Positions 54,894 through 59,709 of a stretch of 64,000 bases of DNA are shown here, piece after piece. The stretch spans positions 62,001 to 126,000 of the forward strand of contig JAFEFF010000202.1 in assembly GCA_018240745.1 (NCBI GenBank). Reading direction: 5' to 3'. Position 1 is the first letter of the stretch; every line of letters starts with the position of its first letter. Origin of the DNA: Pseudomonadota bacterium. GTDB taxonomy: Bacteria; Pseudomonadota; Alphaproteobacteria; Reyranellales; Reyranellaceae. The notes below the pieces were generated by a model, which saw nothing but the letters and a program-made list of their open reading frames with translations, was not told the origin of the DNA and made no database searches. A program made the translations under genes and the position numbers.

Positions 54894-55070
54894 CCTCTCC
54901 GCCGCGCAGCGGGGGAGAGGAAGGGACCCGTTGCGCAGCAACGGGGAGGTGAGGTGGTCGCGCAACAGAAGCGGCGTGCGTTTGGGTGCGCAGCCTTGAC
55001 CCACCTCACCCTCCCATCGCCTGCGCGATGGGCCCCTCCCTCTCCCCCCGCGAAGACGCGGGCGGAGAGG
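54894..55070. repeat. Family B structured repeat, copy 1 (177 bp)
   Basis: Outer arms CCTCTCCGCC / GGCGGAGAGG, next arms GGTGAGGTGG / CCACCTCACC, and two self-complementary loops CCGTTGCGCAGCAACGG and CCCATCGCCTGCGCGATGGG. It would fold into a branched cruciform or RNA. It accounts for nearly all of the 54883-55091 gap. Copies 2 and 3 at 56708 and 59533 are the same length. Confidence 0.9.
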
Positions 55071-55091
55071 TGCCCTTACACGATCGCGTGT

Positions 55092-56633
55092 CTAGATGCG
55101 GCCGGAGAAGAACAGCGCCACCGCAAAGAAGCCGATCGGAACCAGCAGGGCGACCCAGCGGAACGCCATGGCCGTTTCCAGGGTCGCGTGCGAGGGATTG
55201 GACGGATCGTAGTGCACGCTCACCGTCGCGCCTGCCGGATAACGCTGCACGGTCTGCTCGGCGAGATCGCGGGCGCCCGCGACCTCGGGGCCGAAGGCCA
55301 CGCGCGAGCCATGATAGCTGCGCTCGCCGACATGGTAGCTGTACTCGACCAGGGGCGACCATACCGTCGTCGTCTGGCTGCCGCCGGTCTGCGTGAGCGT
55401 GCGCCGGGACTCGGCCCGGCTCGACAGCACCGTGCCCGGCGCGGTCGGCCAGCGCGACGCTGCCCTTGTCTCGGCAAGGTTGGAAATCACCGAAACCGAG
55501 GCGACGAGCCCGCAGGCCACGAAGAACAGGAAGGCGTGGACGACCGCACCCGGCGGGAAGTGCGGCTGCAGCCAGGCGATGACATCGCCCGCCCGGGTGA
55601 AGCCGAACACAACCACCAGGCCCACCAGCATCAAACCACCGGCAATGGCGTACATCACCCCGGGACTCGCCGGCGGATCGCGCTCGAGCACCGCCTCGTC
55701 CGGCTTGGCGGGGTTGTAGAAGACCGGCCCGGTGCGGCCGATCTGGTAGCGCTCGAGGGCGGCCTCGACCTCGGGACTGTCGGGCTTGATCTCGCCAATG
55801 CTGATGCGCTTGCCGCGATGCTCCACGCCGCCGACGGTGTAGATGTAGGTGATGTCGGGAACGTTGCCGACCGACGGCGCTCCGCCGCTCAGCTTGGTGT
55901 CCACCTTGCGCGTCCTGCAGCCGATGATCCTGCCCGGCGCCGATGGCCATCGGCTGGCCCGCCGCACCTCGCTCATCCTGTAGACGATCATGCCGGCGAT
56001 GGAGGCCGGGATCATCATGGCGAACACCGCCATGAAGAGCCATCCCGGCAAGACGGCCACCCCGATCCAGAAGGCGGCGATCGCGGCCACCAGGAAGCCC
56101 GAGCCGGCCGGCAGAGGGATCGCGCCGGCGCGGCGGCCGTGGCGCCAGGCGATCACGAGCAGGCCGATTGCCAACAGACCCGCCACCGGCGCACCGTAGG
56201 TGAGCGCGGCCCGCACCCTGGTGGTTGTGCCATTGTCCTCGGGGTAGGCCCGGCTGGGCACGCGGACATCGAGCCTGGTCTCGCCCGCGGAGTCGTATGC
56301 CCTGGCAACGATGTCGCCCAGGTCGCGCGCCGCCGCGACGGCTCTTGCGCGAGTGGGTGCGGAGACCTCGATCTGGCTTCGGCGCGAGCTGTTGCGATCG
56401 AACGAATAGGACGCGTTCACGTCATCGGGCACCGTCAACGACGCCAGGGCGCGCTCCAGACGAGGACGGTCCGCGCTGTCCTGGATCCAGAGACCGATCG
56501 TCAATCCGTAGGATGTCGCGAACTGGTCGGCGATCAGCTCCCGTCCCAGGAACAGCCCGAGCGCAGCCAACCCCAGCACGACGGCGAGCATGCAGCGCCG
56601 CACCAGCCTCGAATAGTGCTCGCGTTTCTCCAT
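55092..56633 (-). CDS. DUF3592 membrane protein with two DUF3592 modules
   Basis: 513 residues from the ATG at 56633 (weak ribosome site; an ATG at 56678 is also possible). It has about six hydrophobic segments and two soluble DUF3592 modules in tandem: the first around ASRWPSAPGRIIGCRTRKVD with YTVGGVEHRGKRISIGE and VFYNPAKPDEAVLERDP; the second around ASRWPTAPGTVLSSRAESRR with YHVGERSYHGSRVAFG and VHYDPSNPSHATLE. The duplication is seen directly. Family function unknown. Flanked on both sides by family B repeats. Confidence 0.85.
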   Translation of the reverse strand: MEKREHYSRLVRRCMLAVVLGLAALGLFLGRELIADQFATSYGLTIGLWIQDSADRPRLERALASLTVPDDVNASYSFDRNSSRRSQIEVSAPTRARAVAAARDLGDIVARAYDSAGETRLDVRVPSRAYPEDNGTTTRVRAALTYGAPVAGLLAIGLLVIAWRHGRRAGAIPLPAGSGFLVAAIAAFWIGVAVLPGWLFMAVFAMMIPASIAGMIVYRMSEVRRASRWPSAPGRIIGCRTRKVDTKLSGGAPSVGNVPDITYIYTVGGVEHRGKRISIGEIKPDSPEVEAALERYQIGRTGPVFYNPAKPDEAVLERDPPASPGVMYAIAGGLMLVGLVVVFGFTRAGDVIAWLQPHFPPGAVVHAFLFFVACGLVASVSVISNLAETRAASRWPTAPGTVLSSRAESRRTLTQTGGSQTTTVWSPLVEYSYHVGERSYHGSRVAFGPEVAGARDLAEQTVQRYPAGATVSVHYDPSNPSHATLETAMAFRWVALLVPIGFFAVALFFSGRI

Positions 56634-56707
56634 GGCGCGCAAAGGGTGCGCCGCCGCTTCGCGACCCGCAAGCCTCAACCGACGCGTGTCCGGGCCCGCT
56701 CAGAAGT

Positions 56708-56884
56708 CCTCTCCGCCGCATAAGCGGGGGAGAGGAAGGGACCCGTTGCGCAGCAATGGGGAGGTGAGGTGGTCGCGGAACAGAGGTGGTGTGTGTTGGA
56801 CGGAGAGGTATGACCCACCTCACCCTCCCATCGCTTGCGCGATGGGCCCCTCCCTCTCCCCCCGCGAAGACGCGGGCGGAGAGG
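56708..56884. repeat. Family B structured repeat, copy 2 (177 bp)
   Basis: Same length and arms as copy 1, with small base changes (for example the self-complementary loop reads CCGTTGCGCAGCAATGG). It fills the gap 56634-56915 between the DUF3592 and MetE-like genes, both on the minus strand. Confidence 0.9.
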
Positions 56885-56915
56885 TGTGCCGCGCCAACCG
56901 GCTCCGCCACTATCG

Positions 56916-58121
56916 CTACAGCTGCTTGCTGGCGATCGCGGCGCCCTGGGCCAGGGTTTCGAGCTTGGCCCAGGCGATGTCGCGGTGGACGCGGCCGCCC
57001 AAACCGCAGTCGCTCGAGGCGATCACGCGTTCCTTGCCGACCAGCCTGGCGAAGCGGCCGATGCGTTCGGCGACCAGCTCGGGGTGCTCGACCACGTTGG
57101 TGGCGTGGCTGACGACGCCCGGCAGGATCAGCTTGTCGTCGGGGAGTCTGGTGCCCTGCCAGATCGACCATTCGTGCTCGTGGCGGACGTTGCCCGCCTC
57201 GAAGGAATAGGCGCCGGCGTCGATCCTGAGCATCAGGCCGACGATCTCCTTCATCGGGATGTCGGTCATGTGCGGCCCGTGCCAGCTCCCCCAGCAGAGA
57301 TGGAAGCGGATGCGGTCCTGCGGCAGGCCCTTCAGTGCCTGGTTCAACGCCTCGATCTTGGGCTCGGTGAACTTGCGGTACTCCTCGAAGGTCGGCTCGG
57401 GGTTGATCTGGTCGAAGTTCTCGGCGATCGCCGGGTCGTCGATCTGCAACACCAGGCCGGCATCGACGATCGCCTTGTATTCCTCGCGCATGGCATCGGC
57501 ACAGGCGAACACGAACTCGTCGTCGCTCTTGTAGTAGCGATTGCCGACGCGCGCGCAACTCGCCGGGCCGATCGAGGTCATGAAGCCCTCGGCGACGCCG
57601 TTGGCCTTCAGCGCCGCCTTGAAGTTGGCGATGTCGGCGGCGATCGCGGCATGGCCGGTGTAACGCACCGGCTCGACGGCGAACGGCCAGGTGTTCAGCC
57701 GTGGCCCGGTCGTGATGCCCGACTCGGGATCGGAATACGCCACCTTGAAGCGGGCGCGATCGCGGCGGTCAGCGAAGGTCGAGAGCACGGTGTTGCCGGG
57801 CGACGAGCGATGCACCGGCAGTGTATCGCGATCGATGTCCTCGATCCTGAGACCGCCCAGCCGGGTGAAGGAGTAGCTCCACCAGGCGCGGTAGTTCACC
57901 TTCGAGCCCATCGACTTGCCGTACTCGCCGTCGCCCGGGACGGCGATGCCGGCGGCGACCTGGCGGCGCACGACGTCGTTCACCGACTGGGCGAGCTTCT
58001 GCTGGAACCGGGCCTCGTCGATCTTGCCGAGCTCACGCTGGTGGTTGGCCTCGATCAGATCGTCCGGCCGCGGCAGGCTGCCGGCATGGCTGGTCAGGAT
58101 GGCGTCGGTGCTGCGTTGCAT
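56916..58121 (-). CDS. MetE C-terminal-like (cobalamin-independent methionine synthase family) protein
   Basis: 401 residues from the ATG at 58121, about half the length of MetE (about 755), lacking the N-terminal half. TIM-barrel family stretches: TSHAGSLPRPDDLIEANHQR, VPGDGEYGKSMGSKVNYRAW, LVLQIDDPAIAENFDQINPE; zinc-ligand-like RFHLCWGSWHGPHMTD and VIASSDCGLGGRVHRDIAWA (Cys) with AYSFEAGNVRHEHE. Such short proteins may transfer methyl groups from unknown donors or demethylate small molecules. Ends 31 bp before repeat copy 2 (downstream side); the crotonase gene starts upstream on the same strand, 13 bp away. Confidence 0.87.
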   Translation of the reverse strand: MQRSTDAILTSHAGSLPRPDDLIEANHQRELGKIDEARFQQKLAQSVNDVVRRQVAAGIAVPGDGEYGKSMGSKVNYRAWWSYSFTRLGGLRIEDIDRDTLPVHRSSPGNTVLSTFADRRDRARFKVAYSDPESGITTGPRLNTWPFAVEPVRYTGHAAIAADIANFKAALKANGVAEGFMTSIGPASCARVGNRYYKSDDEFVFACADAMREEYKAIVDAGLVLQIDDPAIAENFDQINPEPTFEEYRKFTEPKIEALNQALKGLPQDRIRFHLCWGSWHGPHMTDIPMKEIVGLMLRIDAGAYSFEAGNVRHEHEWSIWQGTRLPDDKLILPGVVSHATNVVEHPELVAERIGRFARLVGKERVIASSDCGLGGRVHRDIAWAKLETLAQGAAIASKQL

Positions 58122-58134
58122 GGTCGGCGCCCCC

Positions 58135-58917
58135 TCAGCGACCTTTGAACGGTGCGGCCTTGCGCTTCTCGGCGAACGCGCGCGCGGCCTCGTTGAAGTC
58201 CTCGGAGAGATAAAGCTTCTCCGGCGCACCCATGAACATCACCTCGCGGCTGAGACGATCCATGTAGTAGCGCCGCATGCGCACGGTCGAGCGCACGCTG
58301 AGCGGCGGATTCTTCAGCACCTCGTCGGCCAGCCCGCGCGCGACCGCGAGATACTCGCCCTTCGGGGCCACGCGGTTGATCAGGTTGGCCCTGAACGCCT
58401 CCTCGGCGGTGAAGAAGCGGCCGGTCAGCGCCGCCTCCATCGTGAACGCGCCGCCGCCGCGGTAGTGCATCAGCGCCCAGTATTTGCCGGCGCCCAGGCC
58501 GCGCGAGGTCTCGGTGATCTGGAAGCGCGTGCCCTCCTCGGCGACGATCAGGTCACACTCCAGCACGATGCCGACCGACAGGCCGAGCACGTAGCCGTGC
58601 GCCGCCGCGATCACCGGCTTCCAGTTCACGGCCTTGGTCAGGAGGTCGGACGAGTGCGTGCCGCGCCCCTGCGGCCCGCCGAGCTTGAGGAACTCCTCGC
58701 GGCTGCGCAGCTGGCGCTGCTGCACGTCGGCGCCGCTCGAGAAGGCGCGGCCGGTGCCGCACAGGATGGCGATGTGCGCCGTCTCGTCGGTGTCGAAGCG
58801 ATGCAGCGCATCGCCCAGCGCGCCGACCAGCTCGTCGCTGAAGGCATTCAGTTTCTCGGGGCGGTTCAGGGTGAGTGTCACCACCGCGCCGTCCTGCTCA
58901 TAGTTCACGAGCGCCAT
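58135..58917 (-). CDS. Enoyl-CoA hydratase/isomerase family protein (crotonase)
   Basis: 260 residues from the ATG at 58917 (GGAGGAAACG). Crotonase fold: VVTLTLNRPEKLNAFSDELV, ILCGTGRAFSSGADVQQRQL, KPVIAAAHGYVLGLSVGIVL and FTMEAALTGRFFTAEEAFRA-NLIN. The Glu164-equivalent of hydratase is kept (FQITETSRGLG), but the position of Glu144 (GGGCE in the rat enzyme) reads GLSVG, so ordinary hydration is doubtful and an isomerase, hydrolase or decarboxylase-like role is possible. Co-directional with the MetE-like gene. Confidence 0.87.
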   Translation of the reverse strand: MALVNYEQDGAVVTLTLNRPEKLNAFSDELVGALGDALHRFDTDETAHIAILCGTGRAFSSGADVQQRQLRSREEFLKLGGPQGRGTHSSDLLTKAVNWKPVIAAAHGYVLGLSVGIVLECDLIVAEEGTRFQITETSRGLGAGKYWALMHYRGGGAFTMEAALTGRFFTAEEAFRANLINRVAPKGEYLAVARGLADEVLKNPPLSVRSTVRMRRYYMDRLSREVMFMGAPEKLYLSEDFNEAARAFAEKRKAAPFKGR

Positions 58918-58969
58918 CGTTTCCTCCGTTTCGTTGTGCCAGACTAGCCGACGGGATCGGGAGGAAACC

Positions 58970-59077
58970 ATGGGCATGATCGCAAAAGCGACAGCCGCGT
59001 TTGTGCTGCTGCAGCGCTTCACCGGCGAGCGGTTCGAGGTGTTCGGCGAGCTTCTCAGCGCCAGAGTGCAGAAGTGA
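58970..59077 (+). CDS. Possible 35-residue small protein before ridA
   Basis: The ATG at 58970 has a strong site (GGGAGGAAACC) and opens a 35-codon frame: MGMIAKATAAFVLLQRFTGE then RFEVFGELLSARVQK. It ends 14 bp before the RidA start, whose ribosome site lies over its stop, so coupling is possible. No family recognised; a short leader peptide or a real small helical protein are both possible. Confidence 0.4.
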   Translation: MGMIAKATAAFVLLQRFTGERFEVFGELLSARVQK

Positions 59078-59091
59078 AGGAGAAGGACGAG

Positions 59092-59478
59092 ATGGCGAAG
59101 CGCAAGAGCATCAACTGGCCGGGTTTCAAGCACGAGAACCCGATCCCCAACGCCAGCCGCATCGGCAACATCCTGATGTCGAGCATCATCAGCGGCCGCG
59201 ATCCCGACACCAAGACCATGCCACCCGACGCCGAGGCCCAGGTCGCCAACATCTTCAGGCAGATCCGGCTGTGCGTCGAAGCGGCGGGCGGCACGGTCGA
59301 CGACATCGTCAAGATCAATTTCTGGGTCAAGGATCCGGCGATCGGCCGCAAGATGCTGAACGGCCCGTGGACGGAGATGTTCCCCGACGCCGAGTCGCGG
59401 CCGGCGCGTCACACCCTGGCGCTCGGCGCCAACAACCCCAACCACGTCACCTGCGATTTCATGGCGGTGATCGGGTAG
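59092..59478 (+). CDS. RidA/YjgF family protein
   Basis: 128 residues from the ATG at 59092. RidA family: SINWPGFKHENPIPNASRIG, GNILMSSIISGRDPD, RLCVEAAGGTVDDIVKINFW and FPDAESRPARHTLALGANNP. Family members hydrolyse reactive imines or have lost that activity; the catalytic Arg of RidA (typically in the RxxPAR motif) seems present as SRPARHTLA. Cytosolic. Divergent from the crotonase gene. Confidence 0.87.
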   Translation: MAKRKSINWPGFKHENPIPNASRIGNILMSSIISGRDPDTKTMPPDAEAQVANIFRQIRLCVEAAGGTVDDIVKINFWVKDPAIGRKMLNGPWTEMFPDAESRPARHTLALGANNPNHVTCDFMAVIG

Positions 59479-59532
59479 CTGGCCGGGACGGCGCCACGGA
59501 GTGGCGCGGCCCCGGCGTATCGCCTCGGATGT

Positions 59533-59709
59533 CCTCTCCGCCGCGCGAGCGGGGGAGAGGAAGGGACCCGTTGCGCAGCAACGGGGAGGTGAGGTGGTCG
59601 CGCAACAGAGATGGTGTGCGTTGGACGGAGAGGTATGACCCACCTCACCCTCCCATCGCATGCGCGATGGGACCCTCCCTCTCCCCCCGCGAAGACGCGG
59701 GCGGAGAGG
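59533..59709. repeat. Family B structured repeat, copy 3 (177 bp)
   Basis: Same length, arms and internal loops as copies 1 and 2. It fills most of the gap 59479-59758 between ridA and the C13 peptidase gene, which converge on it. Confidence 0.9.

Follow-up and report, generated by a model that had tools for sequence, protein, structure and literature searches.

MITE-like 177-bp repeats of a Reyranella-like genome as probable gene-less derivatives of a hairpin-ended element carrying a DUF559 nuclease gene

The three 177-bp repeats found in the window (the whole 64,000-nucleotide stretch of DNA that was analysed, from a Reyranella-like genome available as a 225-contig draft) are best read as MITE-like, non-autonomous derivatives of a hairpin-ended element which carries one DUF559 nuclease gene, with the DUF559 protein as their putative mobiliser. 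We give this reading a probability of about 0.75. The origin of the repeats from a DUF559-carrying element is highly probable, and the chance that DUF559 is itself the mobilising enzyme is put just short of even. A non-autonomous mobile element was the first possibility listed in the initial annotation of this DNA, and it is well supported by the copy number, the presence or absence of the repeat at orthologous sites, the terminal inverted hairpins, a DUF559-carrying parent and a series of nested deletions.

The positions of the three copies and of their parts are presented in Table 1. As first described, all three are exactly 177 bp long and intergenic, and they share the same orientation; the neighbouring genes code for an AMP-binding synthetase, a DUF3592 protein, a MetE-like protein (Meth_synt_2), RidA (Ribonuc_L-PSP) and a peptidase C13. 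BLAST identity to copy 1 is within 89–91% (89% for copy 2 and 91% for copy 3). The outer arms, second arms and internal hairpins were recovered as annotated, with the outer hairpins located exactly at both ends. Each end of the element is made of an outer hairpin (CCTCTCC..GGAGAGG), an inner hairpin and an arm (GGTGAGGTGG/CCACCTCACC); the two ends are inverted with respect to each other, and the centre is variable. The identical length holds for the window copies but not beyond them, other full copies measuring 169–181 bp in the same genome and 156–200 bp in relatives. Between RidA and copy 3, at positions 59491–59507, the window also contains a hairpin (GCGCCACTCCGTGGCGC) whose type is found in relatives on either side of some Y1_Tnp (RAYT-like) genes.

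Table 1. Coordinates of the repeat copies and their parts within the window.
Feature	Position	Strand	Context or support
Copy 1, 177-bp MITE-like element	54894..55070	+	between acyl-CoA synthetase (+) and DUF3592 gene (-)
Copy 1, left outer hairpin CCTCTCCGCC..GGGGGAGAGG	54894..54920	+	covariation, hairpin-pattern match
Copy 1, left inner hairpin CCCGTTGC..GCAACGGG	54927..54945	+	helix 2, compensatory changes
Copy 1, left arm GGTGAGGTGG	54948..54957	+	
Copy 1, right arm CCACCTCACC	55001..55010	+	
Copy 1, right inner hairpin CCCATCGC..GCGATGGG	55013..55032	+	helix 4, compensatory changes
Copy 1, right outer hairpin	55039..55070	+	covariation, hairpin-pattern match
Copy 2 of the element	56708..56884	+	between DUF3592 gene (-) and MetE-like gene (-)
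Copy 2, outer hairpins	56708-56735 and 56853-56884		
Copy 3 of the element	59533..59709	+	between RidA (+) and peptidase C13 (-)
Copy 3, outer hairpins	59533-59560 and 59678-59709		

The pairing within the repeat was evaluated on an alignment of 53 copies, using a model of four hairpins plus the arm, according to which 96.6% of the cells are paired. This model contains 82 cells with a double change, against 23.5 in shuffled alignments (0 of 500 shuffles reaching the observed value) and at most 4 in slid versions of the model, while a long-stem model, which pairs the two halves of the repeat with each other, has 2 such cells on the same alignment, equal to the shuffle mean; the shuffle control is inflated by the kinship of the copies, which leaves the contrast between the pairing models standing. 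Covariation thus supports four local hairpins and no element-spanning stem. The latter was rejected despite the folding energy, by which RNAalifold favours a structure of mixed type that includes a long outer stem and single-sequence folding also favours parts of this stem. The covariation check proposed with the initial annotation is therefore positive for the local hairpins only, and the copies do not look selected for the multi-branched fold of the whole repeat which had been suggested. The example then given of a difference that keeps pairing, TCGCCTGCGCGA versus TCGCATGCGCGA, is not evidence of pairing, since the differing base lies in the loop; true compensatory changes are found only in the wider set of copies.

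A search of the whole genome with the repeat, also proposed initially, returned many copies, far above chance. There are 48 BLAST matches at E ≤ 1e-3 and at least 20 copies of the repeat, and the exact hairpin pattern has 35 matches, compared to 0 for a reversed-pattern control. Several copies lie at contig ends of the draft, so the true copy number is probably higher than counted. Among the 61 genomes searched, 26 matched the repeat, the majority of them from the same genus, and the exact hairpin pattern was found in Reyranella, Enhydrobacter and other alphaproteobacterial records. Two short matches were obtained from Azospirillum plasmids, and none in a search of phages. The outcome that the initial annotation had set against its own reading, namely three copies only, with random changes in the arms and no pairing support, was looked for and is not what was observed. 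At one locus (L037:975-1408), an insert with AGGGCTATCGCAT ends interrupts a copy of the repeat; a similar insert is present in L308, and together they look like a separate mobile family.

Complete elements of 480–490 bp are found in two relatives, G028 (L157) and G034 (L158), where a DUF559 gene lies between inverted copies of the 73-nt right half of the repeat (positions ~105–177). The G028 element is 489 bp long with the gene at 76–417, and the TGA stop of this gene directly abuts the right arm CCACCTCACC. The right halves of the window copies are identical to the G028 ends at 64–66 of 75 letters, with a local score of 50–54 against a shuffled maximum of 18.5–21. Copies from a third relative, G005, are homologous to the G028 element from its left tip to position 278, 233, 230, 212, 122, 92, 89 or 74, and every one of them retains the right outer hairpin; the series extends from elements with half the gene down to ~170 bp and represents nested internal deletions. 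The window copies correspond to the ends only. A full DUF559 element with window-type ends was not found in the draft genome to which the window belongs. Its four DUF559 genes are all bracketed, by other hairpin types which score at null level against the window repeat, and they were rejected as its partner because their ends do not match.

The presence or absence of the repeat was compared between species, not strains, over flanks that are ~80–95% identical, so that an insertion point is not placeable to the base; the orthologous spacers are too diverged to give empty sites at base level. With this resolution, the comparison of empty sites called for earlier did yield orthologous sites without the repeat: it is absent from the acs-metE and ridA-C13 sites of the relatives examined, all three window copies being lineage-specific. 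The acs-metE spacer measures ~93 bp in G023; in the window it contains two copies of the repeat and the DUF3592 gene. In many relatives the synthetase is followed immediately by metE, where the window has copies 1 and 2 with this gene (54894-56884), and the DUF3592 gene may have arrived together with the repeats. Many species have a short ybaB-recR spacer, and in G015 this spacer is filled; a further site is occupied in sister species by a DUF559 element, by unrelated palindromes or by neither of these. In the filled spacer of G015 (L151:1449-1869), the DUF559 element is only a few bases from the apparent start codon of recR and may thereby affect the expression of a repair gene. The site of the G020 DUF559 element is occupied in L308 (G077:C375:3700-5300, 96% flank identity) by an element with a different open stretch beside the hairpin, which is not DUF559.

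A scan for target-site duplications, another of the checks proposed at the outset, found none enriched apart from CATG, a palindromic sequence at the tip of ten DUF559 elements; among the many offsets tried, 3 bp gave a weak signal (6 observed, 1.4 expected). There is thus no cut-and-paste signature. This result, together with the Vsr-like nuclease fold of DUF559 and its homologue 3HRL, would also suit a form of hairpin homing, in which DUF559 would cleave at a site where a solo hairpin is already present, repair of the break would copy the gene-bearing element into it, and gene-less copies would form by collapse or deletion. At the site of the full G028 element, G034 has a decayed version and another insertion, and G024 and G026 have a single outer hairpin, which speaks for homing. 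However, the solo hairpin could equally be a collapsed remnant, and other orthologous sites, such as the short ybaB-recR spacers, are without any hairpin. We consider homing unlikely.

The association of DUF559 with hairpin ends is not restricted to the elements described above. Inverted hairpin repeats bracket 63 of the 72 DUF559 loci from this genome and its relatives, compared to 2 of 281 control genes, which are called genes in other loci (Fisher p ~4e-57). A locus was counted as bracketed when the inverted repeats lying on its two sides, at up to 300 bp, scored above a threshold of 15, the 99th percentile of 1000 random placements; nine of the DUF559 loci are not above it. Over the whole phylum, 18 of 28 DUF559 loci exceed the threshold, and in several families DUF559 is the gene that recurs inside such brackets. 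The type of end is correlated with the distance between DUF559 proteins (Mantel r -0.58, 0 of 2000 permutations), as is expected of units travelling together. Judging from dN/dS values of 0.04–0.09 in five of six pairs (the sixth is saturated at silent sites), the DUF559 genes look to be under purifying selection. The domain (PF04480) is Vsr-like with a PD-(D/E)XK fold and matches a solved endonuclease-like protein, 3HRL.

In the mechanism that we propose, the DUF559 protein would recognise the terminal hairpins of the element that encodes it, in extruded or single-stranded form, and would nick or cut at their tips. It would move or copy this element, gene-less copies that share its ends could be acted upon in trans, and insertion would be completed by host repair. 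Alternatively, a DDE or other transposase could move elements with these ends, DUF559 being a passenger selected for another job. The lack of a matching DUF559 element in the draft genome would agree with this, as would the link of a DUF559 protein to mismatch-type repair, the Caulobacter protein VsrA having been interpreted as a mismatch-repair-type endonuclease (PMC12907096). Against a transposase with DUF559 as passenger stand the lack of a detectable target-site duplication, the recurrence of DUF559 inside such brackets in several families and the joint divergence of ends and protein, and we regard it as improbable. VsrA and 3HRL are members of the protein family to which the product of the full element belongs, but they are described as a repair enzyme or an endonuclease-like protein. 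Of 14 open-access papers that mention DUF559, none presents it in its title or start of abstract as a component of mobile DNA.

REP families and RAYT genes are a known pairing of hairpin and enzyme (PMC3733652), and the repeats could accordingly be of REP/REPIN type and moved by a RAYT (HUH tyrosine transposase), with DUF559 genes as merely one kind of cargo. The window element and its full form resemble REPtrons and TIRtrons in their short inverted hairpin pairs between genes, their many copies, the one small nuclease gene that such hairpins enclose and the excess of gene-less copies, and the only Y1_Tnp gene of the genome, L350 (G000:C138:19910-20137), is indeed bracketed by inverted TCTTCCGGACCGCGGGCCTCCAGGCCCGCTCATG hairpins. 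However, the Y1_Tnp loci of these species, which are often bracketed, carry another hairpin family (e.g. GGACCGCGGGCCTCCAGGCCCGCTCATG), and the window repeat is present at none of 20 such loci, the best score of 19 being at null level. By contrast, the DUF559 loci of G028 and G034 do carry it, and the type of end tracks the DUF559 protein. RAYT was rejected as partner of the window repeat, and a RAYT-driven origin is very improbable; two hairpin/enzyme pairings seem to coexist. The window element also differs from REP/REPIN systems in that the bracketed gene codes for a Vsr-like nuclease and not an HUH tyrosine transposase, and in that each of its ends consists of two hairpins and an arm and has no GTAG tag, none being seen at the hairpin foot in the composition of the flanks. 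Least probable is a structured RNA or bidirectional transcription boundary kept for host regulation, as also suggested initially: the hairpins are strong with compensatory changes and two of the three window copies lie between convergent genes, but no Rfam family matches in the window, the gene contexts (25 tandem, 19 convergent, 7 divergent) are close to background, and the copies are lineage-specific, the same sites in sister species carrying unrelated palindromes or nothing. A preference for convergent genes was not clear against the background from the same loci, which relies on a crude gene caller; the hairpins may nevertheless influence transcripts incidentally.

Considered as non-autonomous derivatives of a DUF559 element, the repeats share with MITEs their many copies, terminal inverted repeats and absence of coding capacity, their presence or absence at orthologous sites between species, and their origin from a coding element with matching ends through loss of its interior, which leaves mainly the terminal inverted repeats (the G028 and G034 parents and the G005 series). 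They differ from the MITEs of classical insertion sequences in having no target-site duplication, a parent gene which is not a DDE transposase, and ends that are local hairpins. Another comparison is with the CGTC-tagged REPs, which have stems of 8–9 bp, short loops and CCA tails, and whose alphaproteobacterial families were left without a transposase in a survey of tagged REPs (PMC3733652). Both are alphaproteobacterial palindromes, and several copies of the repeat begin with CGT-CCTCTCC, a likeness by description only; the window element, with 177 bp and four hairpins, differs from these REPs as they are described. The link to DUF559 points to a candidate type of enzyme for these transposase-less REPs, within the limits of that likeness.

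Since the repeats break draft assemblies and the content of a site differs between sister species, they shape both gene spacing and assembly quality. The present results suggest that a widespread protein family, DUF559, serves hairpin-ended mobile DNA. A broader and more tentative proposal, which we hold at somewhat less than even, is that DUF559 proteins mobilise widespread minimal hairpin-ended elements in several families of the phylum, as a Vsr-like PD-(D/E)XK counterpart of the RAYT/REP system, and that many alphaproteobacterial palindromic repeats are their gene-less offspring. If DUF559 does move such elements, a domain of unknown function would acquire a transposition-type role. Through this link, a class of palindromic repeats gains a candidate parent, and a domain present in many bacteria a testable role.
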